IMG/VR virus record: IMGVR_UViG_3300025840_000289 | Coordinates: 1 to 22,174 of that record | Length of the DNA stretch: 22,174 nt | DNA from: a virus | Strand: one strand, 5' to 3' | In this document: positions 3,451-21,845 of the stretch, piece after piece | Layout of the letters: the number at the start of each line of letters is the position of its first letter | Numbering within the stretch: position 1 is the stretch's first letter | Program-made: the position numbers and the translations under genes | The notes under the pieces: model-generated | What the model was told of the DNA's origin: nothing | The model's input: only the letters and a program-made list of their open reading frames with translations | Database searches by the model: none

Positions 3451-5559
3451 ATGGCTGAATCCCCCACCCCGATGACTGCAGAAGACCTCAAAGCCTGGAT
3501 TGCTGGCACGATCCAAGACTCTGTGGACCACATTGACGATGAGGTCTCACCAGTCCGTGCCTCTGCATTCCGGTACTACCTCGGTGCCCCGTTCTCTGAC
3601 AGTGGAGACTCACCTGCAGAAGAAGATGGCAGATCTCAGGTCGTCAGTCGGGAAGTCCATGATGCTGTACACTCGATGCTCCCCTCTTTGATGCGGGTCT
3701 TCTTCAGTCATGACAAATCCTGTGAGTTCATCCCACGAGGACCTGAAGATGTCGCAGGTGCCGCACAAGCCACAGAGTTAGTCAGTTGGTATTTGGAACA
3801 GAGCAATGCCTACAGTGTCTTTGCAGATGCCATCAAAGATTGTCTGATCAAGGGCGAAGGCATCATCAAGGTTTGGCACGAGACGCAGTACGACATTCAA
3901 ACACGAGAACTGCAGGGCTTGGACGAGCTGCAGATCGGTCTGTTTGTGCAGGAAGGATATGAGGTTACGTCAAGCGAAGAGTTGGAAGATGCTCCAGGTT
4001 TGTATTCGGTCGTGCTGACGAAGCGAACTCCACGGGGCAAGATCCGGCTGGAGTGTCTTCCACCAGAAGAATTTTTGATCAACAGAACAGCTACCTCCTT
4101 GGATGATGCCAAGATCGTCGCGCACCGACAACTGCTGAGAGTCGGAGACCTGGTTGAACTCGGCTACCCCTACGAAACGATCATCGAGTACAAAGGATAC
4201 GAGGATGATTTTAGATCAAACGAAGAATGGAATCTGAGGCACCCGAACTGGCGGGAAGAGGACGACACCGACAGTGACCCTAGCAATCGATTAGTCCAGT
4301 ACGTTGAGAGTTTCGTGCGTGTCGATGCCGACGGAGATGGAGTGCCGGAACTGCGGAGGATCTGCACGATCGGCAACGCTCATGAGATCATCATGAACGA
4401 ACCTGTCGATTCTCACCCTTTCCTCTTGATCCGCAAAGATCCCTTACAGCACACCTGGAGAGGCATGTCTCTCTATGATGAACTCGCAGACATCCAACGG
4501 ATCAAGAGTGCAGTGATGCGGAACATGCTGGACTCTCTGTCTCTGTCCACCAGGCCAAGGATCTCCTATCTGGAATCTGCTGTGGACTGGGAGGATCTGG
4601 CGAATGACGAGGTCGGGGCACTGATTCCAATGCGACAGGCAGGCGCAATCCAGATGCTGGAAATGCCCTTTGTCGGAGCAGCCGCATTCCCTTTGTTGCA
4701 GTATTTGGATCAAGTCAAGGAGACCCGCACAGGGATCTCCAAGGCATCCCAAGGTCTTGATGCCGAGCATCTCCAGTCCACCACGAGCATTGCCGTTTCA
4801 GCAACACAGAAGGCAGCCCAGGCAAGGTTGGAACTGATCGCCCGAAACATTGCCGAGTCTGGTTTCAAACCGTTGTACAAGAGACTGCTGCAGCTCACCT
4901 TGTTGCACATGGACCAACCGACCGTCATGAGACTGCGAGGTGAATTCGTCCAGGTCGATCCCCAGAGTTTTGCAGACTACGATGTGCTGATCACCCTCCC
5001 ACTGGGACGAGGATCTGAAGAAGAGAGACGCCAAGCACTGCTGGGACTGCTGGAGAAACAGGAGATGCTGATTGCCCAGTACGGACCCATGAATCCGATC
5101 GTCGGACCAGAACAGTATTACCAGACTTTGCAACGTCTCTTTGCAGATCAAGGACTGGGTGCCGAGGCAGGATCATACCTCCGTCCTCCACAGCAGATGC
5201 AAGCTCTCTTGCAACAACAAATGCAGCAAGTGATTGCACAACAGAACGAAGAACCAAAACCCTCACCAGAGGAGATGCTGGCTCAGGCAGAGATCCAGAG
5301 GAAACAGCTCGAGGTTGCCCAACGTGCCGAGGAGATGAAACGAGAGGACGACAGGAAGAGGGACGAGATGGAAGCAGAACTCTTCCTCAAATTGAAGGAA
5401 CTCTCCTTCAAGTACCAGCAACCGATTGATGCCTCCCCACTGCTGGATGCCCTGACCCGAAACCGTGAGCTGGAACGAGTGGACCAGGTGAGACAACAGC
5501 AGTTGTACGAACAGCAGTTCCAGGCACCTCAACCCCCACCAGGACAGATGCCCGCATGA
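3451..5559 (+). CDS. Portal (head-tail connector) protein
   Basis: A 702-residue protein, a size typical of podovirus/P22-like portals, which form a dodecameric ring at the head vertex for DNA entry and exit. Recognisable portal features are the N-terminal helical block with SREVHDAVHSMLPSLMRVFF, the conserved KGEGIIKVWHE wing motif, PPEEFLINRTATSLDDAKIVAHR, and HPFLLIRKDPLQHTWRGMSLYDELADIQRIKSAVMRNMLD, the long helix region before the crown. The last 130 residues are Gln/Glu-rich and strongly coiled-coil (LLQQQMQQVIAQQ, then KREDDRKRDEMEAELF), resembling the barrel of P22-type portals. It starts immediately after the preceding stop and overlaps the next gene by ATGA. Confidence 0.9.
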   Translation: MAESPTPMTAEDLKAWIAGTIQDSVDHIDDEVSPVRASAFRYYLGAPFSDSGDSPAEEDGRSQVVSREVHDAVHSMLPSLMRVFFSHDKSCEFIPRGPEDVAGAAQATELVSWYLEQSNAYSVFADAIKDCLIKGEGIIKVWHETQYDIQTRELQGLDELQIGLFVQEGYEVTSSEELEDAPGLYSVVLTKRTPRGKIRLECLPPEEFLINRTATSLDDAKIVAHRQLLRVGDLVELGYPYETIIEYKGYEDDFRSNEEWNLRHPNWREEDDTDSDPSNRLVQYVESFVRVDADGDGVPELRRICTIGNAHEIIMNEPVDSHPFLLIRKDPLQHTWRGMSLYDELADIQRIKSAVMRNMLDSLSLSTRPRISYLESAVDWEDLANDEVGALIPMRQAGAIQMLEMPFVGAAAFPLLQYLDQVKETRTGISKASQGLDAEHLQSTTSIAVSATQKAAQARLELIARNIAESGFKPLYKRLLQLTLLHMDQPTVMRLRGEFVQVDPQSFADYDVLITLPLGRGSEEERRQALLGLLEKQEMLIAQYGPMNPIVGPEQYYQTLQRLFADQGLGAEAGSYLRPPQQMQALLQQQMQQVIAQQNEEPKPSPEEMLAQAEIQRKQLEVAQRAEEMKREDDRKRDEMEAELFLKLKELSFKYQQPIDASPLLDALTRNRELERVDQVRQQQLYEQQFQAPQPPPGQMPA

Positions 5560-7691
5560 GACCTCAGAGGTACGGATCTAGACGAAGAGCAGTACAACAA
5601 CAACCAGGTCTGCTGGATGACTGGGAACTGCTGGACTATCTGGGTCTAGTTGCTCCCATGATGCCAACTGCCTTGCTTGGAGATCCTTTCAGTCCAATAG
5701 AAGCAATGGCAGGAGAAGACTCTGACATCAAACGATATCAACAGAATTATTTTGATATTACTCAAGGCAATCCTGCTCGGTACAAAGACTTGCCTATCTT
5801 TAATCCTGCAGATTATCCAGGGAAGACTATTGCTCCAATCAAGGCAGATTTGACGACTGGAGGGAAGACTTACACAGGGATTGACTCATCTAAGATTGAC
5901 GATCCTGTCCCGATGATGGGTGGCCCTGAGTATGTGGTTGAACCTGGCAGAGAGTCTTTACTATTCCCTGAAGAGGCAATTGCAAACAGTAAAAGCAACA
6001 CAACCTCTATGTGGGCATCAAGTCCTAAAAAAGCATTGTTAGGAGGGCAAAGTAAATTACCTCCAACAAAAGGAGGTGCTGACTTTGTGACTGTTCATGC
6101 ACTTAGTCAGGATGCTCATAAATCTAATCAATCATTGATGGACAGCACATTACGGACTGTTGGTGCATATGTCCGAGATGGACGGATTAGTCCTAATGAT
6201 ATTGTAGAATTGAACAAATTGATCCGAGTCCAAGTGCCAGACTTCCCTGGGTTAGAAGACCCCAGTTCATATGAAAAAACGGGACAGATGACCTTTGACC
6301 AACGTGCAAAAATTTTGAACATTTTGGCAAAACCAGGTGCTGAGAAATACAACGTTCCGCCAATTTCAAAAATTTTAAATGAAACTCGAAGTGCGGAATT
6401 TCATGGAACTAGAAAGAATCAACCGATGCTTGTCTTGAAACCACATCGAGACGCACAAGGCAACTTGATTCCTTTACGATTAGGTCGAGACACAGAGGCA
6501 CTGCACAACTCTTACGGTAAGGGGTTCGCAGGCGAGGTCGTTGGACGATTTGCAGCACCCGTTGCTCCAGATGCCTTGTATCCAGATTTTTATCGAGAAA
6601 AACGATCTGCAGGTAAACTAGACAAAAATATTGATTGGGAATTGGCCGACAGGTCTCAACCTGTTCAGACGATCAATCAAGAAGTGATCAGTAGAACAAG
6701 AGCAACACCTTATCAATATATACGCTCACCACGACAAGCAGAGTTGGCAATTGAGGCAGGTCTAGGAAAATTCCGAGATTCAAAGGCCAAGGTAGATGAT
6801 GGAGGAGTTTCTCCTGCAGATTTTTCTCGCCAGTTGCGATCTTCTCCAGCATCTGCGGCACTAACACAATATTCAGAGAAGGATCTGAATAAAAAAATAA
6901 AATCTGGGGAGATGGAACTTTTCCAATTAGGCAAGGATTCTAAAATTGGATTCGGTCTGCAGTATGGTCAAAGTTATTTAAATGATTACGGTTTTGATTC
7001 TCCGGTTTTGTCTTCTGACGATGTGCGGATTGTTTCTGTGTTCAACAACGAACCTGGGGCAAGTGGGGTAGGAGGACCAGGCACAATGTTAAAGGCGTTG
7101 TCAAAAGGTGGGAATGTCCTTGATGCCTATGCAGTCCCAACACCAGAGAACCCGTCAGGGTTCCTTCCTAAAGTTTATGAAAAGTTTGGATTTTCTGAAG
7201 TTGGCAGAATCCCATTTAGTCGAGAATTTTTCATTGAGGACATGGAGAAAGCTGGAAAAAATGGGAAACAAGCGTATAATGATTTAGTAGAATTTTGGTT
7301 AAGCACTGGCTGGAATCCCACAATGGGAGAACCAGACATTGTGATCATGAAATATACTGGAGATCCAGATGTTAGATCAAACCCAGTCCGAGAATTTTTT
7401 GAACAGGGTCGTCTCGGTGTTAGGTCTGGAAGAACAAGGATCAACACCGCAGCAGTGGCGAGTGTTGGTGGACGAGTTGGAGGATTTGCTGGAGACACGG
7501 TCACCGGATCAAATATCCGACCAGATGATCCAAGGATCATGGAAGGTCGCAACCCACCTGCATCCCGTGGACGGTTCCCTGCGTTATTAGATGAGATCAT
7601 TAACCTCTCCAATCAAGATGTTTACAATCTTGGCCTAGATAAGTACGACGTTAAAGCCCTTAGAAACAAATTAACTTCCTTGCTTTTTTAA
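5556..7691 (+). CDS. Large phage protein with GNAT-like region and possible ART-like motif; likely virion or ejected protein
   Basis: A 711-residue protein overlapping the portal stop (ATGA). I do not recognise a single family for it. Around residues 490-560 is a block with VRIVSVFNNE, GPGTMLKALSKGG, LDAYAVP and FLPKVYEKFGFSEVGRIPF. YEKFGF is the hallmark of motif B in GNAT acyltransferases, and similar GNAT-like blocks occur in multidomain phage polypeptides. Around 282-330 the sequence FHGT, a Gly-Arg-Asp, then LHNSYGKGFAGEVVGRF is reminiscent of ADP-ribosyltransferase folds, but the catalytic triad cannot be assigned with certainty. The N terminus has a hydrophobic stretch (LLDYLGLVAPMMPTALLG). 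From about 5730 the DNA is visibly more AT-rich than its neighbours, suggesting separate ancestry. Its position after the portal is where MuF-type or injected proteins are often encoded. Confidence 0.55.
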   Translation: MRPQRYGSRRRAVQQQPGLLDDWELLDYLGLVAPMMPTALLGDPFSPIEAMAGEDSDIKRYQQNYFDITQGNPARYKDLPIFNPADYPGKTIAPIKADLTTGGKTYTGIDSSKIDDPVPMMGGPEYVVEPGRESLLFPEEAIANSKSNTTSMWASSPKKALLGGQSKLPPTKGGADFVTVHALSQDAHKSNQSLMDSTLRTVGAYVRDGRISPNDIVELNKLIRVQVPDFPGLEDPSSYEKTGQMTFDQRAKILNILAKPGAEKYNVPPISKILNETRSAEFHGTRKNQPMLVLKPHRDAQGNLIPLRLGRDTEALHNSYGKGFAGEVVGRFAAPVAPDALYPDFYREKRSAGKLDKNIDWELADRSQPVQTINQEVISRTRATPYQYIRSPRQAELAIEAGLGKFRDSKAKVDDGGVSPADFSRQLRSSPASAALTQYSEKDLNKKIKSGEMELFQLGKDSKIGFGLQYGQSYLNDYGFDSPVLSSDDVRIVSVFNNEPGASGVGGPGTMLKALSKGGNVLDAYAVPTPENPSGFLPKVYEKFGFSEVGRIPFSREFFIEDMEKAGKNGKQAYNDLVEFWLSTGWNPTMGEPDIVIMKYTGDPDVRSNPVREFFEQGRLGVRSGRTRINTAAVASVGGRVGGFAGDTVTGSNIRPDDPRIMEGRNPPASRGRFPALLDEIINLSNQDVYNLGLDKYDVKALRNKLTSLLF

Positions 7692-9124: not shown

Positions 9125-10583
9125 ATGGCACTTCTAACGAATGCCTCCACCTCGTATGACATTAAGGCGTCGGGAACCGAGGAGGATGTAATTGATATTA
9201 AAGAGATTGTTTATAACATCTCTCCCACTGAGACCCCATTCGTCAACAGTGTAGGGACCCGCAACGTCTCAAACACCGTCTTTGAGTGGATCACAGAAGA
9301 GTTGTCCGCAACCTCAACCACAACCGACCTGGAAGGGGATGCCATCAGTGCAGCAGCAGCCTCACTGACCACCCGAAACAGCAACGTCTGCCAAATCATG
9401 TCGAGGGCAGTAGCTGTGACAGGGACTCAGTCTGCGATCAAACTCTACGGTGAACGACTTGCCGCTTAACTAGGGAACTAGTTATGAAAAACTCCGTGAA
9501 TTGCTGGGAAGTCCAGACCGGACAATCAGCAGCCAAGCCCAGAAATGGGAAGGTTCAACGACTAGCCGAAAGGCGTACACTCAAGCGAGTGGAAGTGCGG
9601 AGCACCCTGATCGGGTGAAGATATAGTCTGAACTGCCTGGGAACAGGTAGCAGTCCCGAATGGGACGGGTCAGGGAGTAGCGAACCTGATTGAACATATT
9701 GAAGACATCGCAGATGGCCCATCAGATGGCAAGACGCACCAAGGAACTCAAGCGCAGTGTCGAAGCGGCACTCTTGAGCAACCAGGCCCGCAACAATGGT
9801 GCTGCGGCAACAGCCCGAACGAGTGCAATGATTGGTGCCTGGTTGGACACCAACACCGACTTTGATGGTGGTGGTGCAGATCCGGTGACTCCAGGCTCAA
9901 CAGCCCGAACGGACTCTGGAGTTCAGCGAGCATTGACTGCCTCAATCATCAACACGGTGATGCAATCGTGCTACACGGAAGGCGGTGAACCAGATCGCTT
10001 GATGGTCGGACCTTTCAATAAGACCGTGGTTTCAACATTGACCGGACGATCTATTGCCCGTGAGATGATTGATTCCAACACTGCTGGTAGCAACGTAACC
10101 GTAAAATGTGCGGCCTGATCTGGGAACAGATCAGTGAAGAACCCTGTGAATTGCTGGGAACTCCCAAGCGGACAATCAGCAGCCAAGCCCAGAAATGGGA
10201 AGGTTCAACGACCATTCCGAAAGGAAGTAGGATCAAGCGATCCGAAGCGCAGGGCACCCCGAACGGGTGATGAGATGGTCTTCTCTTTACAGCAATGTAA
10301 AGCAGTCCGAAAGGACGGGTTGGTTTTAGCGTAACTAACTGAAAATAAAGGATTTGCTACAGACTTTGGAGACCTACAGGTCATGCCAAATCGATTCCAG
10401 CGAGAACGTGACGCTTTCTTGATCTCGCCAGAGTATGCCAAGGTTTCCTACTTGAGAAATTTCCAGGTCAGTACCCTCGGAAAGACTGCAGATGCTGAGA
10501 CCAAGCACTTGGTGGTCGAAATGGGTCTGGAGATGACTCAGGAAGCAGCTCATGCTGGGATCTTTGATCTGACCACTTCCTAA
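9125..10583 (+). CDS. Major capsid protein, SU10/DUF5309 family, split by two group I introns (join 9125-9451, 9702-10102, 10352-10583)
   Basis: Read directly, this region shows three short ORFs, none a complete protein. Joined at the predicted splice sites it is 960 bases, 319 residues, a normal length for SU10-type capsid proteins (DUF5309, HK97 fold). Exon 1 gives 109 codons, including YNISPTETPFVNSVG, LEGDAI and VTGTQSAIKLYG. Exon 2 continues KTSQMAHQMARRTKELKRS, SNQA, GAWLDTNT, GGEPDRLMVGPFNKTVVS. The Val codon is split GT/A. Exon 3 continues FATDFGDLQVMPNRFQRERD, YLRNFQ and EAAHAGIFDL. Every conserved block appears once, in order and in family spacing, and the reading frame is restored at both junctions. 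Unspliced message would stop at TAA 9467-9469. Scaffold upstream and an SU10-type adaptor downstream support the identification. Production of capsid therefore depends on two splicing events. Confidence 0.93.
9452..9701 (+). ncRNA. Group IA intron 1 in the major capsid gene (250 nt, no ORF)
   Basis: All group I elements can be placed. P1: exon CGGT 9448-9451 with guide GCCG 9461-9464, giving the splice-site U.G pair. P2: 9467-9473/9478-9484 with a GGAA loop. P3: CTCCG 9492-9496/CGGAG 9598-9602. P4: TGCTG 9502-9506/CAGCA 9527-9531. P5: GTCC 9511-9514/GGAC 9520-9523. P6: CCCA 9538-9541/TGGG 9546-9549, GAAA loop. P7: GACTA 9560-9564/TAGTC 9624-9628. P7.1: 9565-9574; P7.2: 9578-9591. P8: 9603-9607/9613-9617. 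P9: 9633-9639/9644-9650 with a GGAA loop. P9.1: 9653-9657/9662-9666. The core has the typical AATTGCTGGGAA, AATCAGCAGCC and AAGATATAGTC strings. P7.1/P7.2 mark subgroup IA. The terminal G is 9701. Exon AAG 9702-9704 can form P10 with CTT 9458-9460, abutting the guide. No endonuclease ORF is present. Confidence 0.95.
10103..10351 (+). ncRNA. Group IA intron 2 in the major capsid gene (249 nt, no ORF)
   Basis: Same architecture as intron 1 with compensatory changes. P1: CCGT 10099-10102 with GCGG 10110-10113 (U.G at the splice site). P2: 10115-10122/10127-10134, GGAA loop. P3: CCCTG 10142-10146/CAGGG 10250-10254. P4: 10152-10156/10177-10181. P6: 10188-10191/10196-10199, GAAA loop. P7: GACCA 10210-10214/TGGTC 10276-10280. 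P7.1: TTCC/GGAA 10215-10226. P7.2: GGATC/GATCC 10230-10243. P8: 10255-10259/10265-10269. P9: CTTTACA/TGTAAAG 10285-10302, GCAA loop. P9.1: GTCC/GGAC 10305-10316. The terminal G is 10351; using 10350 instead would create a TGA codon. P10 may form between exon ATTT 10352-10355 and AAAT 10104-10107. The core from P4 to P7 is almost identical to intron 1. No ORF is present inside. Confidence 0.94.
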
Positions 10584-10610: not shown

Positions 10611-10937
10611 ATGCTGACCAAACAGATTTTAGATCATACGGGCAACATCATGAGTGAATTCATCGTCGATGAAGTAGACTCACGAAACCTGCAGATTCAC
10701 CATAAGGTCACGCAGGATGTTGAGCCAACATTGAAGTTAGCCAAGGTCCTGCGTGACAACCAGCACCTTGATAATTTTGCAAACAAAGATTCCGGCTGGA
10801 AGAGAGTTGCCGAGATTCCCAGAGTTCTCTACGACCAACTCGCGCAGCAAGGGATCACCAGGGACAAGAAGAAGTTCAGAGCATGGTTGAATGATTATGC
10901 CAATCGTCCATTCCGAGTTTGGGAGGGACACCTATGA
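10611..10937 (+). CDS. Small conserved phage head protein, unknown function
   Basis: A 108-residue protein directly after the capsid gene. No strong Shine-Dalgarno precedes the ATG; only an AGG at 10600-10602 is visible. It contains KVLRDNQHLDNFANKDSGWK, VAEIPRVLYDQL and a C-terminal KKKFRAWLNDYANRPFRVWEG block. Proteins with this IP-x3-x2-QL ... WLND-x2-NRxFR ending follow the capsid gene in many marine podovirus-like genomes in my recollection, without an established role. The stop overlaps the adaptor start by ATGA. A head-completion or decoration role is only a guess from position. Confidence 0.75.
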   Translation: MLTKQILDHTGNIMSEFIVDEVDSRNLQIHHKVTQDVEPTLKLAKVLRDNQHLDNFANKDSGWKRVAEIPRVLYDQLAQQGITRDKKKFRAWLNDYANRPFRVWEGHL

Positions 10938-11554
10938 CGTTCGATGAATTGAAATCCAACATCGCAGACTGGCTCAATCGAACGGATCTGACCTCGGTCA
11001 TCCCGACCTTCATCACCTTGGCGGAAGCCAGGTTGAACCGACAGCTCAGGACGACCAATCAGTACACTCGTGCAGACATCTCAACGAGTGATCAGTACCT
11101 CTCGATGCCCTCCGACTTCCTAGAGATGCGGCATCTGCGGATGACCTCCCCGAAAGAACGGGACCTGGTGGAAATTGCAGCTCATTCGATCAATGAGTAC
11201 ACCGACACTAATTTCATTGCAGGACTGGCAGACTCGTATCCCAGATATTTTGTCTACGGCAATGCCTTGCGGATCATCCCCACCCCTGCAGAGTCGATCA
11301 CCTACGAAATGTTTTACTACGCCAAGATCCCCGCACTGAGTACAACCAATACAACGAATTGGGTCAGCACCTCTCACCCAGACGCATATCTCTACTACAG
11401 TTTGATGCAGGCCGCACCGTATCTGGGAGAGGATGAACGGATCGGAGTTTGGGCACAGCAGGCAGAACGTGCCGTTGCTGAGATCCAGGCATCAGATGAC
11501 CGAAGGAGAACGAAGGGGTCACGGCATAGTCTGAACTTCCAGGCCATGTCATGA
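10934..11554 (+). CDS. Head-tail adaptor, SU10-type
   Basis: A 206-residue protein. ATG 10934 is preferred over an in-frame TTG at 10919 because it forms the ATGA overlap used throughout the window and follows GGGAGGG. The opening MTFDELKSNIADWLNRTDLTS, FITLAEARLNRQLR, MPSDFLEMRHLRM, YFVYGNALRIIPTP, YEMFYYAKIPALS-TNWV and PDAYLYYSLMQAAPYLGED are characteristic of the phage adaptor family typified by SU10, which forms the ring joining portal to tail. Length fits. It overlaps the following gene by four bases. The combination with a DUF5309 capsid upstream is self-consistent. Confidence 0.85.
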   Translation: MTFDELKSNIADWLNRTDLTSVIPTFITLAEARLNRQLRTTNQYTRADISTSDQYLSMPSDFLEMRHLRMTSPKERDLVEIAAHSINEYTDTNFIAGLADSYPRYFVYGNALRIIPTPAESITYEMFYYAKIPALSTTNTTNWVSTSHPDAYLYYSLMQAAPYLGEDERIGVWAQQAERAVAEIQASDDRRRTKGSRHSLNFQAMS

Positions 11555-11736
11555 GCACCTCGATCAAATATGGGACGACCAGGTACGGGATCGGACCCTA
11601 TGTCAAACGGTTTGAGTTTGAACCTGAATCAGATCCGACTACGGATTGGACAGACCGAGCAGACACCACTGCAGAGATTTGGACGAAACGACCGGATACA
11701 CAACCAGAAGATTGGGTAAGTTATGGCTCTAAGTGA
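11551..11736 (+). CDS. Small virion-associated protein, unknown function
   Basis: A 61-residue protein starting at an ATGA overlap with the adaptor. It opens with IKYGTTRYGIGPYVKRFEF, a pattern (YG-x2-RYG-xG-Y) seen in short phage proteins between adaptor and fibre genes, and ends acidic and Trp-rich (DWTDRADTT, EDWVSYGSK). The end of this gene overlaps the next by 14 bases. Function is unknown; position suggests a neck or tail component. Confidence 0.65.
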   Translation: MSTSIKYGTTRYGIGPYVKRFEFEPESDPTTDWTDRADTTAEIWTKRPDTQPEDWVSYGSK

Positions 11737-12133
11737 TTCCCCTCCTACCACTACTCAGTATTCGATCACGCTTCCTGAAGTTGGGAAGAATAAAAACAAC
11801 TGGGGTGTAATTTTGAATGCTGCAATTGAGTCTGCAGCATCAAATCTGAAGAACGTGGATGACACCCTTGGAGACGCGGCAGACTCCGCGACTCCATCCT
11901 TGGCCTATCAACTGACTCAGGCAGTCACCAATGCGAGCACTGCTGCTTCCAACTCTGCAACTGCAATTACGGTTAGTAGTAAACTCACAAATAATGCCCT
12001 CGTTGCACTCACGAATGATGTGAACACAGCAGTGACCAATGCCGCGACTGCGTCCAGTAACGCAAGTGCTGCCAAGACTTCGGCAGATGCTGCACTGGTT
12101 CTCGCCAATGACGGATATTACGCAGCAAACTGA
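11723..12133 (+). CDS. Short tail-fibre-like protein with N-terminal anchor and Ala/Ser/Thr-rich shaft
   Basis: A 136-residue protein. Residues 12-32 have the anchor-like pattern YSITLPEVGKNKNNWG-x-ILN, shared in looser form with the next two proteins. The rest is an Ala/Asn/Ser/Thr-rich low-complexity region (TNAATASSNASAAKTSADAA) with regular heptad-like spacing, like the stalk of a trimeric fibre, ending abruptly in YYAAN. It might be a short whisker or the attachment half of a fibre whose distal part is the next gene. The stop overlaps the next start as TGATG, so the two are made together. Fibre assignment is an inference from motif and neighbours. Confidence 0.65.
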   Translation: MALSDSPPTTTQYSITLPEVGKNKNNWGVILNAAIESAASNLKNVDDTLGDAADSATPSLAYQLTQAVTNASTAASNSATAITVSSKLTNNALVALTNDVNTAVTNAATASSNASAAKTSADAALVLANDGYYAAN

Positions 12134-13131
12134 TGCCAACAACCAGCAGTTTCTACACAGATTTAGAGTACCCAACGGTCAACCAGGATGGTGACACCTG
12201 GGGCACTCTGACGAATGAATATCTCGATGGGTTGCTGACGAAACTCAAAAATCTGAGTGATCGGATCAATTCGGCAGGAGTGGGTTCAGATAGTGATCTC
12301 TCTCAGATCCTCAGAGACATTTCTCAGTATGAGAACATCAATGCCAGTATTCCGACAACGGTCAAATCTCTATTTGGCATCATCGACCTCAAGGCAGCAG
12401 ATACCTATTCTTACGCAACTGCCTGGAATGCGACCTACGACAGTTATCTGCAGGGATTCAGTCTAGTCCCTCCAGGTTCTGCTGCGGCAGTGCAAAGTTT
12501 TGACTACGACCTGCTGGCAGAAAAACTCAGACCCTTTGTTACCCAGGCAGAAAATAATATCTCTCAGGCGAACTCAGACATTGCGCATGTCAATGCGATC
12601 TTGGCACGACTGGCTGCAGGTGCCACTCTCCAACCTGTCTACATTCCCATCATTGGGGATTCTGGAGTTTCAGGGCAGTTGACGATCACAAAAAACGCAA
12701 ACGGTGCTCAGGAGAATATGAGCTTTGAACCAGATTCTGGTGATCACACCAACTGGCTGAATGCAACTTCCACTTTATTGGGAATTGGAGCAGGCACTGC
12801 CAATTCCAGTGATGCGACGAATGTCACCATTAGTTATGGAACCCTGATGTTCACAGAAGATGGATATGCCCTGCAAGAAACCTTTTCCGCCAGCACAGCA
12901 CTGTTCACGATCACCGAACTCTCAGGGTTTACTGTGGTTGGGACAAATAATTATTCTGTGCCTGGAGTGGAATCAGGAGCATTGACGGATTGGACGAACA
13001 CAGCTGGATTAAAACGAGTTCGATTTGCCTTCAATGGGCAACCGAACACTGGGGATCTTTCGGCAGGACAATCGAAGACGGTCTCCGCCTCTTTACGAAT
13101 GAGACAGTATTCTCAGAGGTATTTGTACTGA
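12133..13131 (+). CDS. Tail-fibre-like protein with N-terminal anchor
   Basis: A 332-residue protein starting at TGATG. The N terminus FYTDLEYPTVNQDGDTWG-x-LTNEYLDG (residues 6-35) carries the P-x-V-x5-D-x-WG-x3-N anchor signature common to phage fibres. Residues 35-170 are predicted helical and coiled-coil-like (LTKLKNLSDRI, LLAEKLRPFVTQAENNI, ARLAAG). The C-terminal part is beta-rich with Thr/Ser/Gly repeats (NGAQENMSFEPDSGDHTNW, FTITELSGFTVVG), resembling a distal receptor-contact domain. It overlaps the next fibre gene by one base. The precise role, attachment or receptor contact, is inferred. Confidence 0.7.
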   Translation: MPTTSSFYTDLEYPTVNQDGDTWGTLTNEYLDGLLTKLKNLSDRINSAGVGSDSDLSQILRDISQYENINASIPTTVKSLFGIIDLKAADTYSYATAWNATYDSYLQGFSLVPPGSAAAVQSFDYDLLAEKLRPFVTQAENNISQANSDIAHVNAILARLAAGATLQPVYIPIIGDSGVSGQLTITKNANGAQENMSFEPDSGDHTNWLNATSTLLGIGAGTANSSDATNVTISYGTLMFTEDGYALQETFSASTALFTITELSGFTVVGTNNYSVPGVESGALTDWTNTAGLKRVRFAFNGQPNTGDLSAGQSKTVSASLRMRQYSQRYLY

Positions 13132-14771
13132 TGGCAAATTTTACAGAAACGACGAACTACAGTTTCAAGAAACCCACAGTTGGAGCAGACACAGATCAGT
13201 GGGGCACGCACCTCAATGAGACCATCGACGGTGTCGATTCTCAACTGAAAACCCTGGCAGATTCGATCACATCCCAGCAGTTGGAACAGTTGGGGAACGT
13301 GGTCAATGTGACTCCGGTCGATGATCAGTTTCTCAGGTACAACGGAACAAATTGGACTGCTGAAACCGTCACGATCCCCGATCTGCTGAATGACCTCTCA
13401 AATGTTTCAGGGACCCCCTCCTCTGGGGATGTCCTAACGTACAACGGTTCTGCCTGGGCACCTGCCTCCGTCACCTCGGCAGCAGTCACAGATGGTTCTG
13501 TGACAAATGCCAAGCTGCATCCATCGTTGCAAACAGTAATTGGTAGGATCTTGGTGACAGATGATGATGACAGTCCTACCGATAATCAGATTCTGGTCTA
13601 CAGCACTTCAGATGCTGAGTGGCAGTATGCAGATCAGGCTGGTTCGACACTCCAGACGTTGACGGATGTCAGCACGACAGGTCTGAGTGATGGGGATCTG
13701 ATGAAGTATGACGGGACTGCAGGAGAGTTTGTTTTTATCGATGCAGCAGCTGCACGGACTTTGTTATCTGTAGATGTGAGTGGAACAGACAACTCTACCC
13801 CTGTGACCTTGAATGACAACTCTCACGACTACCTGACTCTCAGTTCGCAGCAAATCACCCTCGGCCCGATTGTATTGACGGATGACGTTTCAGGGACTCT
13901 CCCCATTGCAAATGGAGGGACCTCGGCAAGCACTGCTTCCGGTGCCAGGACTGCTCTAGGACTGGGAGGACTCGCAACTCAGTCCACAATCACAGAATCG
14001 CAGATCAGTGACCTGCAGTCCTACATTACTGCGAGTTCGACTGACACCCTGACGAACAAGTCTGGCAACATTTCCCAGTGGACGAATGATTCTGGGTATC
14101 TCACAGCAGAAACAAATGATCTGACCAACGTCTCAGGGACCCTCGGAACTGGAAATGGGGGAACAGGACTGACAGCAATCGGGACTGCAAACCAGGTCCT
14201 GGCAGTCAATAGTGGTGCGACTGGACTAGAGTTCCAAACGATCTCCATTACTGAATCCCAGATTTCGGATCTGCAGAGTTATCTGACTGCCGAGGTAAAC
14301 GATCTGAGTTCATCTGTGACTTGGGCCAATGTCCCAGATGCAAATATCACCCAATCCTCAGTAACTCAACACCAGGCTGCACTCTCCATCACAGAATCCC
14401 AAATCAGTGATTTACAGAGTTACTTGACTGCTGAGAGTAATGATCTTAGCAGTGTGGTCACTTGGGCAAACGTCCCTGATGGGAACATTACCGAATCCTC
14501 GGTCACCCAGCATCAAGCTGCACTATCAATTACTGAATCACAGATCAGTGACTTGCAATCCTACTTAACTGCCGAGGTAAACGATCTCGGAACAGCAGTG
14601 ACAGGCACACTTGGGACAGCAAACGGTGGGACAGGACTGACTGCGATTGGGACATCAGGTCAAGTGCTAAAGGTCAACTCTGGCGCAACTGCTCTGGAAT
14701 TCGCAGATGAATCAGGTGGGGGCGGAATCACAACAGGAAAGGCAATCGCAATGGCAATCGTATTTGGATAA
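13131..14771 (+). CDS. Long tail fibre with internal 47-residue repeats
   Basis: A 546-residue fibre. ATG 13131 is used because it overlaps the previous stop (TGATG); the longer in-frame start at 12990 lies within the preceding gene. Residues 8-30 carry the anchor NYSFKKPTVGADTDQWG-x-HLNETIDG. Then come beta-rich modules of the LSNVSGTPSSGDVLTYNGSAW type, typical of fibre shafts. Two copies of a GNGGTGLTAIGT-type block flank tandem repeats opening SITESQISDLQSYLTAE. The repeats start at residues 372, 419 and 466, the last incomplete. The C terminus is short and Gly-rich (ESGGGGITTGKAIAMAI), so the receptor-binding tip may be supplied by the next genes. Related ITESQISDLQ-x-YL repeats occur widely in phage fibres. 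Confidence 0.82.
   Translation: MANFTETTNYSFKKPTVGADTDQWGTHLNETIDGVDSQLKTLADSITSQQLEQLGNVVNVTPVDDQFLRYNGTNWTAETVTIPDLLNDLSNVSGTPSSGDVLTYNGSAWAPASVTSAAVTDGSVTNAKLHPSLQTVIGRILVTDDDDSPTDNQILVYSTSDAEWQYADQAGSTLQTLTDVSTTGLSDGDLMKYDGTAGEFVFIDAAAARTLLSVDVSGTDNSTPVTLNDNSHDYLTLSSQQITLGPIVLTDDVSGTLPIANGGTSASTASGARTALGLGGLATQSTITESQISDLQSYITASSTDTLTNKSGNISQWTNDSGYLTAETNDLTNVSGTLGTGNGGTGLTAIGTANQVLAVNSGATGLEFQTISITESQISDLQSYLTAEVNDLSSSVTWANVPDANITQSSVTQHQAALSITESQISDLQSYLTAESNDLSSVVTWANVPDGNITESSVTQHQAALSITESQISDLQSYLTAEVNDLGTAVTGTLGTANGGTGLTAIGTSGQVLKVNSGATALEFADESGGGGITTGKAIAMAIVFG
14244..14590 (+). repeat. Tandem 141-bp (47-codon) repeat in the fibre gene, about 2.5 units
   Basis: Units begin at 14244, 14385 and 14526 with an exact 141-base period; the last unit is partial. 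The protein repeat is highly conserved while many third codon positions differ, so the duplication is not recent or has been under protein-level selection. A more distant related start of a unit occurs near 13990. Confidence 0.85.
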
Positions 14772-14774
14772 AAA

Positions 14775-15134
14775 ATGGCAGCACCTAATATTGTTTCAGT
14801 TGGTACGATCACAGGGAAAACGGCAGTCCAGGCAATCGGGACGAGTGCCACGGCAATCGTTACGAATTCAGCAGCATCTGGAAAAGTTTTCAAACTAAAC
14901 ACATTACTAATCAGTAATGTCGATGGATCTGCGAGTGCAAATGTGACGGTCGATCTGTACAGATCCAGTACGGCTTACCACATCATAAAATCTGCACCCG
15001 TCCCTGCAGGTTCAACTCTGGATATTTTAAGCACTACGAGTGTGTACTTGGAAGAAGGGGATGCCATTCGGCTAACTGCCAGTGCTGCTAGTGATCTGGA
15101 GGGGATCGCTAGTTACGAGGAGATTTCAGAATGA
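14775..15134 (+). CDS. Small beta-rich phage virion protein
   Basis: A 119-residue protein with MAAPNIVSVGTITGKTAV at the start, SGKVFKLNTLLISNVDGS, VTVDLYRSSTAYHI and YLEEGDAIRL near the end. This pattern is familiar from many cyanophage and marine podophage virion proteins, always encoded among fibre genes. It looks like a single beta-sandwich domain and might be a decoration or fibre-tip attachment protein. There is no clear Shine-Dalgarno; the ATG follows the fibre stop by three bases and the stop overlaps the next start by ATGA, suggesting it is co-translated with the fibre genes. No enzymatic motif. Confidence 0.75.
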   Translation: MAAPNIVSVGTITGKTAVQAIGTSATAIVTNSAASGKVFKLNTLLISNVDGSASANVTVDLYRSSTAYHIIKSAPVPAGSTLDILSTTSVYLEEGDAIRLTASAASDLEGIASYEEISE

Positions 15135-15964
15135 GTTACATTGGGGGAAATACCAATCCAGGTAATTATATCGGCAGTCATCCGGTTATAGGTATCGCCA
15201 GCAGCTTTCCGAGTTTCCGTAATCGGATTATCAATGGCAATCTAAGCAACCCAATCAACCAACGAGGTGCTGGATCAATAACTGCGTCAACAGGCTATAC
15301 TTATGATCGTTGGTACTACGATGGATCAACTTATTTGTATCAGGCCATTGAAGACAAAAACGTCAACAATGGGACGTATGTAATTAGTTGGGAAGGTTCT
15401 GGAATCAATGCTGCGTGGAAGGTTTCCACAGACACTACTGCTAATAACGGCCCAGATGCTACTTCTGGATTCACAAGCGTTTCCAATGGTGGAACATTTA
15501 CGGTGAATGAAGGCACAGAATACAGTAAGCATTTGTGGATAAGATTCGATGGAACACTAGCCAATCTAGATAAAGTAATGGTGGAAGAAGGCACAGTCGC
15601 AACTCCTTTTGAGCATCGGCCCATTGGGACAGAGTTGGCGTTGTGTAAACGTTATTACCAGAAATCATTCGCATTAACTCAGACTCCAGCACAAAACGAC
15701 TCAAATAATCATTTCAATTTTTCTCTCGCAGCAGATGGTGCTAGCAATGGCACTACATCGTATATTTTCCCCGTTGAGATGAGAGCAGCACCCACAATTA
15801 CTACATTTAATCCCTATGCTGCTAATAATAATTTTCGAAAACCAAATTCTTTAACAGATTACAGTGTTTCAGTGACTAGTACATCTAAGCATTTTTTGTT
15901 TTACAGTACAAGCAGTGGGACAGTCGCACTTAGTGGACATTTTACAGCAGCAGCGGAGTTATAG
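15131..15964 (+). CDS. Receptor-binding tail protein
   Basis: A 277-residue protein. Recognisable pieces are FRNRIINGNLSNPINQRG and YTYDRWYYDGS near residues 30-63, a common phage fibre/tailspike module with a jelly-roll carbohydrate-binding fold in relatives. VEEGTVATPFEHRPIGTELALCKRYYQKS follows near residues 150-178, a conserved linker in the same group of proteins. The C-terminal 100 residues (after KRYYQKS) are Ser/Thr/Asn-rich and would form the variable receptor contact. The DNA is somewhat AT-richer here than in the capsid genes, as is frequent for exchangeable host-range modules. It starts at an ATGA overlap. Host receptor unknown. Confidence 0.82.
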   Translation: MSYIGGNTNPGNYIGSHPVIGIASSFPSFRNRIINGNLSNPINQRGAGSITASTGYTYDRWYYDGSTYLYQAIEDKNVNNGTYVISWEGSGINAAWKVSTDTTANNGPDATSGFTSVSNGGTFTVNEGTEYSKHLWIRFDGTLANLDKVMVEEGTVATPFEHRPIGTELALCKRYYQKSFALTQTPAQNDSNNHFNFSLAADGASNGTTSYIFPVEMRAAPTITTFNPYAANNNFRKPNSLTDYSVSVTSTSKHFLFYSTSSGTVALSGHFTAAAEL

Positions 15965-17398: not shown

Positions 17399-17550
17399 TG
17401 GAATGGTTAGAAATGATTAACTCAGCAGTTGATTCCGGGGGAGTCGAGCTGATTCTGACTGCAGTCGGACTTCCTGCTGCAGCCGTCGGAGTGGGGATCT
17501 ATCGCAAGGTCAGGAAGACTAAAAAAATGAAGGAGCAGATCCTTGGCTAA
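17398..17550 (+). CDS. Small one-TM protein, holin-like (50 aa)
   Basis: ATG 17398 overlaps the endolysin stop (TGATG) and opens a 50-codon frame that ends at TAA 17548-17550. The product MEWLEMINSAVDSGG is followed by a hydrophobic segment (about residues 17-34, ELILTAVGLPAAAVGVGIY) and a strongly basic tail RKVRKTKKMKEQ. One TM with a basic cytoplasmic tail is holin-like, and it sits beside the endolysin. It also overlaps the start of the next gene by eight bases, and that gene's ribosome-binding site lies inside it. Confidence 0.6.
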   Translation: MEWLEMINSAVDSGGVELILTAVGLPAAAVGVGIYRKVRKTKKMKEQILG

Positions 17551-19339
17551 ACGATTAGTAGAGATTGCTCTCCCGCCAGGGTTTGTGGACGGGACCCCTC
17601 GCATGATCAAACAAAGATGGATCTCAGGGAACCATGTCCGTTTCCGAGATGGACGACTCCGACCTATCGGGGGATGGCAGGAGTTCCCCCTCTCACGACA
17701 TTCTGAGACTCTGGACTCTGCCTGCAGAGGCCACCACCAGTGGAGGAATAACCTGGGAGTTGGGTTGATGGCCTTTGGGACTGCAGGATCTGGCGCACCA
17801 AATTATGGAAAACTCTACGCTGCAGAGATCGGCAATCCTGCCACATTCACAGACTCGACTGCAGATACCACCGATGGCAGTGATCAGATTACTGTGGATG
17901 ACGGAACTGCCTATGAGATTGGAGATTTGATTTCCGGTGCCGGAATTCCTGCAGGGTCATCAATCACCGCAGTTTCCACCAACACGATCACGATCAGTGA
18001 GACCGCAACGGCAACTGCAACGAACATCACCGTCACGGTCACGCCAACCCTATCAAGACAACGTCTGTATGACATCACCCCCCCTGGATACCAGGCAACA
18101 GGAGATTCCGAGTTTCGGCCTGGGATGGGATACTGGTATTACGGTGAAGGGTATGAGTATGGTTCTGTGTTCAATGGTGCGGGATCTGCCTCTTATTCCC
18201 GACTGGCGCACTTTTCTATGGATAATTTTGGCGAAAACCTGATCGGGTGCCAAAGCGGAGACAAGGGCATCTTCTACTGGCAAGGAGATCCTGCGACTGC
18301 TGCAGAAGAGATCACCACAACTAACGGATACACGGAGAATGCTCCGACTGCTGTTGCGGTTTTGGTCACCCAGGAACGTCATGTTTTGGCACTGGGTTCC
18401 GCAGGCGATGCTCGGCAGATCAAATGGAGTTCGCAGGAAACTGTTGATGTCTGGACCCCCAGTGCCACTAACACGGCAGGAGATCTGATTCTGCAGACCA
18501 CGGGCTACATCGTCTGTGCAAAAAGGGTCGTCGGAAACGTGCTGGTCTGGACATCCGTTTCTGTCCATCAACTGAATTATTTGGGACCTCCATTGGTTTA
18601 TGGAGTCAACAAACTCGCAGATGGTGCAGGGGTCTTCTCTCCTTACGCAATACACTCCAGTTCAGAGATCACCTGCTGGCTTAATAAATCTGGATTCTGG
18701 GTTTTCGATGGATACGCTCGACCCCTTGAGTGTCCGATTCAAGATCGGGTCATGAGAACAGTCGATTGGTCCCAGGAAGGACTGATCTATTCAGGTGGGA
18801 ATAGCGAATTTGGAGAAGTCTGGTGGTGGTGCCCTTCTCGGTCTGGGACTTCAGGAAGATGCTCGTACTATGTAGTTTACAACTATCGTGATGGAGTCTG
18901 GTACGACTCACTGCCTGACTCTGGGATCACCAGAAACTGCTGGATGGATAAGAATATTCTTAACTCTCCCATTGGAATCGATCCTTCAAATAATACCATC
19001 TACACCCATGAGTCCACAGATCCTGATCAGACTACGACGGCAGAAGCCGAAACGGGTGCAATCGACATCATGGCCGGGGAACGGTACAGCAGAATCAGCA
19101 AGATTTTCAGTGATTCAGATCAGGATGAAGCAGGTTCCATAAATTTCAGATTCTTTACTGCTTCCTCCGGTGATGCTGCAGAAATCGAATCTAGTGATTA
19201 TCCTCTTGAGGCAGACGGAGAAATTGATGTCCGACTGCAGGGTCGTCAAGTACGGTACAAGGTCACAGGGGCACTGACTGCAGGAGACTGGACCGTAGGG
19301 AACACTCGATTTGAAACACACATTGGAGGTCGTCGATGA
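17543..19339 (+). CDS. P22 gp10-like packaged-DNA stabilisation/neck protein
   Basis: A 598-residue protein using a TTG start at 17543. AAGGAG (17530-17535) is seven bases upstream and supports this start. The N-terminal MAKRLVEIALPPGF and HVRFRDGRLRPIGGWQEF pattern (V-x-FR-x-GR--x-x-GGW) is typical of marine phage relatives of P22 gp10, which sits between adaptor and tail needle or knob and holds DNA in the head. Repeated short beta motifs such as GYWYYG, HVLALGSAGD, ARQIKWSSQ, VLVWTSVSVHQLNYLG, GFWVFDGYARPL and YVVYNYRDGVWY suggest a beta-propeller. Residues 104-169 (GSDQITVDDGTAYEIGDLIS and following) look like an inserted Thr/Ser-rich beta domain. The end overlaps the next gene by ATGA. 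Confidence 0.78.
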   Translation: MAKRLVEIALPPGFVDGTPRMIKQRWISGNHVRFRDGRLRPIGGWQEFPLSRHSETLDSACRGHHQWRNNLGVGLMAFGTAGSGAPNYGKLYAAEIGNPATFTDSTADTTDGSDQITVDDGTAYEIGDLISGAGIPAGSSITAVSTNTITISETATATATNITVTVTPTLSRQRLYDITPPGYQATGDSEFRPGMGYWYYGEGYEYGSVFNGAGSASYSRLAHFSMDNFGENLIGCQSGDKGIFYWQGDPATAAEEITTTNGYTENAPTAVAVLVTQERHVLALGSAGDARQIKWSSQETVDVWTPSATNTAGDLILQTTGYIVCAKRVVGNVLVWTSVSVHQLNYLGPPLVYGVNKLADGAGVFSPYAIHSSSEITCWLNKSGFWVFDGYARPLECPIQDRVMRTVDWSQEGLIYSGGNSEFGEVWWWCPSRSGTSGRCSYYVVYNYRDGVWYDSLPDSGITRNCWMDKNILNSPIGIDPSNNTIYTHESTDPDQTTTAEAETGAIDIMAGERYSRISKIFSDSDQDEAGSINFRFFTASSGDAAEIESSDYPLEADGEIDVRLQGRQVRYKVTGALTAGDWTVGNTRFETHIGGRR

Positions 19340-19550: not shown

Positions 19551-21845
19551 ATGATTCGACAAGACGGAAACGGGAATCAAAATCGAACAGGAAGATCAAA
19601 AGAATATGCTCAGTATATTCCTGCCGCAATCGCAACATGGGACTATTTAACCAACCAAGGCGGTCCAAAACAGTCAGGAACCCAGACCTCAACGCAACAG
19701 AACCTGCCAGATTATGCTGTGCCCTTTGCACAGAACACATTGGACATGGGTAGGTATTTTACGAATAACCCCAACTATCGTCCGAGGACCTTAGATCAGG
19801 ATTATTCAGGAATCCGAGGGTTCAATCCTGACGGATCTGCAGTCAGTCAAGTTGGACAGTTTGGGTTGAATCCTAGTTATCAAGTAAGACCTCCAGGCCC
19901 AGTGGCACCTCCACCAGATCGTTTCAACATCCTGCCAGGCATTAAGTACACCCCAGAGAAACCTGCAATGGAGGTTTTTGGTAAGGGTCAACTTAGTTTT
20001 GATCAGTATCAACAGTATCAAGGGTTGTTAGATCAAGGGATGAGTGAGGACGAGGCATTTAGTCAGGCAGGTGGTACTCCGTTCCCTAAACGACAAGGAC
20101 CTCTAGGGTCGAATTTCGGAGAAGTCACCAGTAGTCGAGGAGGAGGTCGGGTTGCAAGGGCTGATCCATCAGGAAGTGCAGGAACCGAAGGCATGACTGA
20201 ATATGAAGCAGAAGGGGGATACACCGGACCAGGATGGGATTTAGATGGTGACGGCAAGGGATACTACTACGATGGGCCAGGTGCAAATGAGTCAAATAAT
20301 GGTGGGAGTTCTGACACACAGACTCAGACACAGGCGAACATCCAAACCCAAGGGATGTCTCCTGAAGAGATCCAGGCATTGATTGACCAGAACCTCCAAC
20401 AGTTTGATCAGAACACAATCACTCCAGATGAAATGCCAACTCCGTTTCAATCGTATGATCGGCAACGGTTTACTGCCCCAGGAGCAGATACTGTTAGAGC
20501 AGAGGGGATTCTTGCAGGTAGATATGGTCAAAGATTTGGACCTAACGGAACAGACCCCTTTGCTGCTGCGAATCAAGCAGTGGGGAATGCGGCAAACTAT
20601 ACTTCAGGATTTCAAGGGACGACTGGCGGAATCGGAGGTCAGGCCGGAAACTACCGTGGATCTTTAGCCACGGCACAGGACCCTGGCATCTTCCAATCCA
20701 AATCCTACACGACCCCAGGACTGCAGAACACCTTCAGCAACCCAAATGCAGGTCTGACCAATGTGAATGCAGGGATGAGGAACGTCAATGCTGGACTCCA
20801 GTCCTCTCAGTACGGGAATGCGAACCGAGGATTGCAGGGTCCAGTGAACTATGAGCGGGATCAGTCGTTTGAGCAGTCCATGCAGAGATTCATGGACCCC
20901 TACACTGATCGAGTAGTCAACCAGACTATGCGCGATCTGGATCGAGTCCGTCAAATGCAGAATTCTGGGATCTCAGGATCAGCAGCACGATCAGGAGCAT
21001 TTGGGGGGTCTCGCTCCCAACTCGCACTGACAGAAAATAATCGGAATGTGGCAGACCGAACAGCCGCAGCGGTGGGGCAGTTACGATCTCAAGGTTTCCA
21101 GAATGCAGCTCAACTGGCGCAACAGGAAGCGATGCAACGGTTAGGACTGACTGCCAGTGATGTTCAAAATGTGCGGGGACTGCAGTCCCAAGGAAACCTG
21201 CAAGGACAACGACTGAGTGCGGATGATCTCCAGAATGTCCGAGGTCTGACTTCTCAAGGTGCTTTGGCAGCACAGGGGTTACGATCCCAGGGGGCACTCA
21301 ATGCTCAGAATCTCGGAGCACAAGGGGCACTTGCCGCACTAAATGCCAATGCGGGATTGTATGGTCAAGCTCTCGGCTTAAATGCAGGGATGGACCGAAC
21401 AGCACTTCAGGCCAATGCTGGTCTGTTGTCGAACGCAATGAGTCTCGATGCAGCAGACCTGCGGGACCGACGAGCAACTGCTAGTGACGAGGCAAAATTC
21501 AGTGAATTAGCAAATCGAGCTGCAGGTGCCTTGAATCTACAAGGGGGCACAGCACTGGGCGATTTGGCACAGATGGGAACTGCAGACGAACGACAACGGA
21601 TTGCGGATCTGGTGGCTTCTGGTCAAGCAGGAGATGCCAGAAACCAGCAGGATCTCGACTTCATTTATAACGAGTTTATGCGAGAGCAGGGATACCCCCA
21701 GGAACTGATTAACCTCCGTAATTCTGCGATTTCTCCAGCAACCGGATCAGTTGTGACTACTAGTTCCCCACTGTATGGTCAAAACCCACTGTTGCAGGCT
21801 CTGGGAATCGGATTGTCAGGGTACAGTTTACTCAATGATGAATAG
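19551..21845 (+). CDS. Internal virion / DNA ejection protein with Ala-Gln-Gly repeats
   Basis: A 764-residue protein. The N-terminal half is Pro/Gly/Gln-rich and disordered-looking, with a segment MSPEEIQALIDQNLQQFDQ near residue 270. From about residue 400 there are Asn-Ala-Gly repeats (NAGLTNVNAGMRNVNAGLQ). A conserved block follows with MDPYTDRVVNQTMRDLDR and ISGSAARSGAFGGSRSQL, which I recognise from internal or ejection proteins of marine podovirus-like phages (pattern MDPYT-x3-VD-x-T ... GAFGGSR). It is followed by repeated LRSQG/LQSQG units and a long Ala-rich helix. The C terminus has the motif MREQGYPQELINLRNSAIS, also typical of the group. It would be packaged and ejected to help DNA cross the envelope. 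Confidence 0.75.
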   Translation: MIRQDGNGNQNRTGRSKEYAQYIPAAIATWDYLTNQGGPKQSGTQTSTQQNLPDYAVPFAQNTLDMGRYFTNNPNYRPRTLDQDYSGIRGFNPDGSAVSQVGQFGLNPSYQVRPPGPVAPPPDRFNILPGIKYTPEKPAMEVFGKGQLSFDQYQQYQGLLDQGMSEDEAFSQAGGTPFPKRQGPLGSNFGEVTSSRGGGRVARADPSGSAGTEGMTEYEAEGGYTGPGWDLDGDGKGYYYDGPGANESNNGGSSDTQTQTQANIQTQGMSPEEIQALIDQNLQQFDQNTITPDEMPTPFQSYDRQRFTAPGADTVRAEGILAGRYGQRFGPNGTDPFAAANQAVGNAANYTSGFQGTTGGIGGQAGNYRGSLATAQDPGIFQSKSYTTPGLQNTFSNPNAGLTNVNAGMRNVNAGLQSSQYGNANRGLQGPVNYERDQSFEQSMQRFMDPYTDRVVNQTMRDLDRVRQMQNSGISGSAARSGAFGGSRSQLALTENNRNVADRTAAAVGQLRSQGFQNAAQLAQQEAMQRLGLTASDVQNVRGLQSQGNLQGQRLSADDLQNVRGLTSQGALAAQGLRSQGALNAQNLGAQGALAALNANAGLYGQALGLNAGMDRTALQANAGLLSNAMSLDAADLRDRRATASDEAKFSELANRAAGALNLQGGTALGDLAQMGTADERQRIADLVASGQAGDARNQQDLDFIYNEFMREQGYPQELINLRNSAISPATGSVVTTSSPLYGQNPLLQALGIGLSGYSLLNDE

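Follow-up and report, generated by a model that had tools for sequence, protein, structure and literature searches.

Three consecutive genes of the viral record IMGVR_UViG_3300025840_000289 encode proteins that begin with one homologous N-terminal module. The whole record (22,174 bases) is hereafter called the window, and the genes are named by their starts as A (11723), B (12133) and C (13131), followed by D and E; the 61-residue product encoded directly upstream of A is called the W protein. The explanation that we favour, with a probability of roughly 0.6, is that A, B and C are three non-interchangeable appendages docked at the tail hub via a single old module, that the W protein is a likely docking partner and that B probably sets the host range.

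The shared anchor of A, B and C is real and homologous. Local alignment of the first 50 residues (a first-pass annotation of this DNA had proposed aligning the first 40) gave scores of 67 (A–B), 82 (A–C) and 91 (B–C) against shuffled means of 21–23, and none of 2000 shuffles reached the score of any pair. Among five other genes compared with these starts (those of the W protein, D, E, the adaptor and the gene at 10611), none exceeded a z of 2.7. A loose P..WG..N pattern searched in all six frames of the window occurred at six places, namely the three anchors and three others, two of which contain a stop codon and one of which (13394) lies inside C but out of frame. Profiles built from the orthologues of A, B and C were aligned by hhalign at the N-terminus over 46 columns for A–B (E-value 1.5e-8, probability 95.5), 41 columns for A–C (2.6e-9, 96.2) and 46 columns for B–C (5.4e-6, 85.8), and no further alignment among the three was reported beyond these ca. 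41–46 residues. The corresponding limits are about residues 7–50 in A (11741..11872), 1–47 in B (12133..12273) and 1–48 in C (13131..13274). Within them, all three proteins carry the motif P-x-V-x4-[DN]-x-WG-x3-N, with a helix near WG in the structural models of A and B. The first-pass annotation was right that the three starts share a motif in tandem, but the gap between V and D/N is four residues rather than five, and the stretch from Y to P in B is one residue longer than in its pattern. Its view of one module placed ahead of different shafts also holds in so far as a module of ca. 45 residues precedes three different bodies. Chance likeness of short, low-complexity starts, to which the shortness of the module might lend itself, is refuted by the shuffles, by the profile E-values down to 2.6e-9 and by the conservation of P in 177, G in 177 and N in 175 of 178 distinct anchors, and its probability is virtually nil.

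The module is also found in other phages. A profile scan of viral contigs (IMG/VR) gave at least 600 matching stretches, of which 562 were confirmed and 80 loci were kept. Among the window and 90 loci, one copy was found in 80 sources, two in eight and three in three, although most of the sampled loci are contig fragments in which copies can be missed; the three-copy sources were the window together with L005 and L006, both closely related to it. The start codon coincided exactly with the start of the profile match in 97 of 105 hits and lay ≤ 3 residues away in all 105. In a phage collection, a 50-residue query taken from the single-copy anchor of L126 matched 10 records at one place each, the same Ochrobactrum phage being included twice, and a query from C at a loose limit (E 10) matched 12 records, of which four from Fusobacterium and one other are probably chance. 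The matched proteins include phiM5 gp19, whose record reads “putative host-binding tail fiber” and “detected in phage particle proteome”. Different fibre bodies stand behind the module (Gp34_trimer in OH, Gly_rich_2 in ctvy9321 and various tail-fibre PHROGs), and no Pfam or PHROGs match at 0.001 covered the module itself among the proteins whose matched stretches were shown. Four weak PDB hits (E-value 0.82–1.4) to a Golgi to ER traffic protein covered the helix part only and were not taken as relatives.

AlphaFold2 (AF2) models were obtained for A (20 sequences; mean predicted local distance difference test (pLDDT) score 76.5, < 50 over residues 1–15; helices 24–50 and 60–135) and for B (23 sequences; mean pLDDT 50; coil 1–21, helix 22–47, another helix 125–161 and low-confidence strands in the distal half). 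Both begin with 21–23 residues of coil, followed by a helix that starts 1–3 residues ahead of WG. The first-pass annotation had made its reading depend on similar predicted N-termini, and the same outline was indeed seen, at low confidence and for two of the three proteins. The module would consist of a coiled-coil helix preceded by ca. 22 extended residues and a conserved P-x-V-x4-[DN]-x-[W/Y]-G cap, and would serve at the N-terminus to dock proteins to the tail of a short-tailed phage belonging to the phiM5/LUZ24-like structural lineage. Alternatively, it could be a cap for trimerisation or folding of the coiled coil rather than a virion dock, so that the likeness would reflect only the way in which folding of these fibres begins; its shortness, the position of the helix just ahead of WG in both models and the putative nature of any docking partner would allow this. 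This alternative is quite improbable, since the module is N-terminal in all 105 hits examined and the extended stretch ahead of the helix is conserved as well (N9 in 153 and L/I/F/Y at position 12 in 177 of the 178 anchors), which a folding cap does not need.

Independently of the fibres, loci were sampled by their adaptor protein. The close group (adaptor identity of at least 88%: the window, L005 and L091–L124) contains many near-duplicate contigs and 23 distinct anchor triplets; L091 and L006 derive from one contig. Wherever the contig extends to C, which holds for 33 loci, exactly three anchor genes were present within 6.5 kb of the adaptor; L096 and L123 break off within B and L124 within the adaptor. 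In the distant group (L125–L169, 45 loci), exactly one anchor gene was found in 42 loci, and the contigs of the other three end too early. The trio is not a chance duplication.

The three genes differ consistently behind the anchor. Gene A (11723..12133, plus strand; 136 amino acids) encodes the anchor and a coiled coil rich in A, S and T, without a distal domain; gene B (12133..13131, plus strand; 332 amino acids) encodes the anchor, a helical middle and a hypervariable distal half (residues 161–332; 12613..13128); and gene C (13131..14771, plus strand; 546 amino acids) encodes the anchor and a long repetitive shaft of tail-fibre type, as indicated by PHROG tail-fibre matches among its orthologues. 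After the removal of near-identical sequences, lengths ranged from 123 to 152 amino acids in A (20 sequences), from 285 to 422 in B (23) and from 433 to 834 in C (23). Mean pairwise identity per 20-residue block was 0.40–0.70 along the entire length of A, 0.29–0.59 over residues 1–160 of B and 0.04–0.19 beyond, and mixed (0.12–0.57) in C. The same mosaic pattern appeared between the window and L005, in which the anchors stay 96%–100% identical while the distal parts of B and C are replaced: the first 100 residues of B were 96%–100% identical and residues 201–325 only 20%–28%, the first 275 residues of C were 92%–100% identical with patchy identity thereafter, and A was 94% identical overall. 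A DSxTPSLAY block after the anchor was present in 34 of 34 A, none of 34 B and none of 32 C proteins, and a six-frame search of the loci found none outside the clade. The clade has fixed roles, with a short and constant A, a B with an exchanged distal half and a C with a long fibre shaft. A separate receptor-binding tip would not fit into A. Judging from its variability among relatives, the distal half of B is probably the receptor-binding part that determines the host range. These appendages would all be trimeric, with A forming a short constant stub, B a mid-length appendage and C a long shaft.

Even close relatives share almost nothing in the distal half of B, despite their conserved B anchor and adaptor. 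In the 23 B orthologues, this half had no Pfam or PHROG match at 0.001, and no Pfam match at that threshold was found elsewhere in B. Some matches to the helical parts were set aside: “fibritin neck whisker” in five of 20 A orthologues (best 5e-5) was read as coiled-coil likeness, and PDB hits of the B profile to Lpp and gp26 (E-value 0.005–0.04) lay in the middle helix and just beyond it.

The A and B anchors each represent an old lineage. In a FastTree tree of 178 sequences over about 46 columns, the A anchors formed one clade (support 0.989) and the B anchors another (0.963). The C anchors formed no clade, and the smallest split containing all 23 of them had 77 members, including A, B and single-copy anchors. 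C was the paralogue nearest to the single-copy anchors (mean identity 0.44; A, 0.35; B, 0.26). Of the 23 distinct B anchors, 17 have Y in place of the W of the motif, whereas the 23 A and 23 C anchors never do; these 17 account for every Y at this position of the 178-anchor alignment. Mean paralogue identity was hardly greater within than between genomes (A–B, 0.294 and 0.294; A–C, 0.336 and 0.332; B–C, 0.301 and 0.286). From the separate A and B clades, the near absence of a within-genome excess and the Y in B, we conclude that duplication took place long ago and that the anchors are not interchangeable. Duplication in the sense of recent, interchangeable copies, as the first-pass wording implied, is therefore not what these anchors show, and a recent duplication within the clade was rejected for the same reason. 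Outside the clade, the two anchors of L028 are near-identical in protein, yet blastn between the copies found two 11-base matches only, and a recent duplication was rejected there as well.

This pattern bears on whether A, B and C could be alternative fibres that compete for equivalent sites, so that virions would carry mixed fibres. The presence of one homologous module on all three proteins and the exchange of distal parts in both B and C speak for such competition. However, the A and B anchors are orthologue-specific, Y for W is confined to B, the likeness is hardly greater within a genome and A lacks a distal domain to display, so that competing fibres seem unlikely. On sequence grounds, the clade pattern is more readily explained by three fixed positions than by random mixing, and the old paralogous anchors would each occupy a fixed place of their own at the tail hub.

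A candidate for the docking partner lies directly upstream of A. The W protein (11551..11736, plus strand) consists of a YG..YG N-terminus, a linker and three tryptophans (W33, W44 and W55) spaced 11 residues apart; it was the only one among 16 window proteins checked to have such a triplet, and it had no PHROG or Pfam match. A search of the PDB with its profile gave a single hit to a nanobody (E-value 0.38), which was read as chance. In the phage SU10 (Kuravirus), according to the available passages of PMC9509320, the short fibre is a trimer carried by a loop of the nozzle, and each of its chains is contacted by one of the tryptophans 839, 847 and 857 of this loop. The W protein may, by analogy, be a separate dock peptide for the fibres, in which each evenly spaced tryptophan could hold one trimer chain as in the SU10 dock loop. 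The window nozzle contains 17 tryptophans with no triplet spaced 6–13 residues, and an SU10-type nozzle loop was thus not found there.

Across loci, a tryptophan array was counted when the final 80 residues encoded by the gene immediately before the first WG-module gene contained at least three tryptophans spaced 7–13 residues; the loci are related, and the counts are not independent events. Such an array was present in all 35 clade loci with a WG gene, in 34 of 42 distant loci and, in the profile sample outside the clade, in 39 of 83 loci with an upstream open reading frame (ORF; four of 87 had none). Among other plus-strand ORFs of at least 100 amino acids, 17 of 1669 had a triplet and 223 of 1669 at least a pair. 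Exactly three tryptophans were found in 20 of the 23 distinct clade loci and five in the remaining L118, L119 and L122. The number of tryptophan repeats was also considered as a measure of fibre number and rejected, as clade loci have three or five and single-fibre loci 0–6 in the last 60 residues. These observations suggest, tentatively, a two-part system in which a separate tryptophan-ladder protein with ca. ten-residue spacing docks trimeric WG-module fibres in trans, and which in the clade organises the dedicated A, B and C appendages, possibly as mixed trimers; we regard this system as less likely than not.

Six of the 17 loci outside the clade with neither a triplet nor a pair (L037, L050, L055, L065, L071 and L084) show Y/F repeats instead, as judged by eye. 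In the same six loci, which have two anchors, the parts of the upstream protein also appear by eye to be reversed, with the Y/F repeats first and a YG-like part last.

Pairwise distances over the 23 loci with distinct anchors were compared among genes. The distances of the W protein, A, B (residues 1–150) and C (residues 1–200) correlated mutually (Pearson 0.47–0.94); those of A and B were unrelated to the adaptor (0.05 and −0.02), and all were unrelated to the gene before the adaptor (−0.01 to 0.08). Mean divergence was 7% in the adaptor and 37%–48% in the anchors. From the 61-amino-acid gene through C, the segment largely acts as one cassette. A pairing of the B anchor with the nozzle was also considered, on a correlation of 0.71 among 11 loci, and rejected, as the value fell to 0.40 and the rank correlation to 0.0 without L102.

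The co-variation also touches on a branched or hetero-oligomeric complex, in which the anchors of A, B and C would join, for example with one chain each in a trimeric coiled coil held by the three tryptophans of the W protein, into a single stalk with different arms. The fixed order and the 1:1:1 gene set in all 33 uncut loci would suit such a stalk, as would the correlation of 0.94 between A after its anchor and B (residues 49–150), the correlations of 0.54–0.73 among the anchors with little relation to the adaptor (0.33 for the C anchor), the similar length of the anchor helices (27 residues in the A model and 26 in the B model) and the prevalence of exactly three tryptophans. Nevertheless, this arrangement is rather doubtful: three clade loci have five tryptophans, single-copy phages manage with one anchor type and 0–6 tryptophans in the last 60 residues upstream, and linkage alone could give the correlation, the rank values being lower (0.71 and 0.27–0.53).

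Several observations weigh against our favoured explanation of three separately docked appendages. First, the co-variation may reflect plain linkage, which is not separable here from physical fit. The W protein correlated with the adaptor at 0.34, the C anchor at 0.33 and the C middle at 0.55 (rank correlations of 0.40, 0.29 and 0.58); the value for the C anchor was reached in two of 2000 permutations; and rank correlations within the set were lower than the Pearson values (0.17–0.71). Second, the tryptophan array is not universal. Outside the clade, 27 of 83 upstream ORFs had a tryptophan pair only and 17 had neither, and seven of 42 distant loci (L144–L147, L166, L168 and L169) have no W-array protein between the adaptor and the WG gene, which begins 10–13 nucleotides after the adaptor; the W protein is therefore not always needed. 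Third, confidence in the anchor models is low, and comparisons with solved structures and with SU10 gave no homologue of the module or the array. As monomers, the A and B models had a mean pLDDT of 34–49 over residues 1–20, the module had no PDB relative at E 1, its hhalign probability against the SU10 gp16 N-terminus (a single-sequence partner) was 0.1, and no sequence homology was found between the tryptophan array and the SU10 dock loop. Finally, gene A had no match in the phage collection, and the virion record for the module is the note on phiM5 gp19, a protein from outside the three-copy clade.

The gene content of the window is that of a short-tailed phage: besides a terminase gene, it has genes for portal, scaffold, head, adaptor and a nozzle-like protein, which occur in this order. 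By gene kind and order, the window was placed in the LUZ24/phiM5-like podovirus structural lineage as set out in the available part of PMC10386132. The adaptor (tail tubular A, the head-to-tail adaptor ring; 10934..11554, plus strand) matched phrog_2941 (E-value 1.3e-49), and a profile of seven relatives matched the head-to-tail adapter 9nwi (3.8e-26), from phage Pa223 according to a table in the accessible part of PMC13299392, and the SU10 adaptor 7z47 (9.8e-24). Gene A starts 169 nucleotides past the adaptor stop, in a tail-module position. The genes from the adaptor to C are chained by overlapping ends: the adaptor stop and the start of the 61-amino-acid gene overlap at 11551–11554, the latter gene and A at 11723–11736, A (stop TGA 12131–12133) and B (start ATG 12133) in a TGATG, and B (stop TGA 13129–13131) and C (start ATG 13131) in another. 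The longest ORF around C begins with TTG at 12990; 13131 is the better start because L005 and L007 have a stop one codon ahead of the same ATG. Downstream on the plus strand are gene D (14775..15134; 119 amino acids; no anchor), which is replaced by a different gene after C in L005, and gene E (15131..15964; 277 amino acids; no anchor), which matched the C-terminal 310 positions of the tail-fibre family phrog_4492 (1.5e-32). The nozzle-like protein (17543..19339, plus strand) matched phrog_3287 (1.2e-44) and, weakly, the 8zkm/8zkk nozzle (5e-4), and is labelled “phage stabilization protein” in three related records.

Other features of the window lie apart from the fibre genes. The major head protein gene (9125–10583) is split by two group I introns (RF00028; 9442–9650, 91.9 bits; 10093–10302, 78.4 bits), and bases 9485–9629 were 82% alike to the corresponding part of the second intron as read in the near-identical contig L006. 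A queuine tRNA-ribosyltransferase-like gene (1–945; phrog_887, E-value 5e-56), open at the record start, and a dCTP deaminase-like gene (2396–2917; 5e-51) both lie beside the packaging genes. Two large proteins of 711 (5556–7691) and 764 amino acids (19551–21845) had no PHROG match at 0.001.

Docking rules are unknown for most environmental short-tailed phages, and the present results outline a compact candidate docking unit of ca. 45 residues, perhaps with a 61-residue partner, which occurs in many uncultured phages and forms a fixed set of three in one clade. One virus may thereby fit several different appendages to its tail. The motif lets fibre starts now called hypothetical be recognised, and for host range the results direct attention to the distal half of B.

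Among known systems, the closest are phiM5 gp19 (Sinorhizobium), OH gp45 (Ochrobactrum) and gp12 of Octadecabacter DB virus 2, which, like similar single-copy fibres, carry the same module at the protein start. As in the window, these fibres are encoded downstream of the adaptor and directly after a protein with tryptophans (3–6 in its last 60 residues). In contrast to the three consecutive copies of the window, all 10 matched records have a single anchor copy, and the upstream protein is 180–508 amino acids long in these three phages but 61 in the window. The upstream protein of phiM5, gp18, carries no particle-proteome note in its record. The window resembles SU10 in its homologous adaptor and, as far as the available passages describe, in having short fibres whose N-terminal clamp residues lie close to a helix. 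The tryptophan spacing is 8 and 10 residues in SU10 and 11 and 11 in the W protein, and the triplet is part of the nozzle loop in SU10 but of a separate protein in the window. LUZ24, of a related structural lineage, likewise has a short collar fibre gene (gp57) between the adaptor and nozzle genes, which we assigned in this analysis to gp60 and gp56, respectively. Its fibre has another type of N-terminus (GDDHLRLIK), and the two small proteins encoded between the adaptor and the fibre both lack tryptophan.

Anchor-branched receptor-binding systems were also compared, namely those of G7C, K1-5 and KP32 (PMC6872550) and TSP1–4 of Ackermannviridae (PMC11414711), as described in the accessible parts of these papers. 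In those systems, a single protein combines the anchor with T4gp10-like branching domains, and the others attach by a different short peptide or module. The likeness lies in several receptor-binding proteins per locus with conserved N-termini and swapped distal parts, and truncated anchor-bearing proteins without a receptor-binding domain are described there too. However, A, B and C all bear the same homologous anchor instead of different peptides. By hmmscan, which is less sensitive than the HHpred of PMC6872550, the window A, B and C proteins had no Pfam match over the cut-off to a T4gp10-like domain, and PHROGs gave nothing gp10-like for A or B orthologues; two of 23 C orthologues matched phrog_677 “baseplate wedge tail fiber protein connector” (best 1.9e-6). 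No title or opening of an abstract naming the WG module or a tryptophan-array dock protein was found, which is not proof of absence, and no such separate tryptophan dock was found described for podophages in the literature passages and listings available. Loci whose several receptor-binding proteins keep their starts and exchange their ends are thus already known from the accessible parts of PMC6872550 and PMC11414711, whereas in the window one anchor is shared by all three proteins and a separate tryptophan protein is the putative dock.

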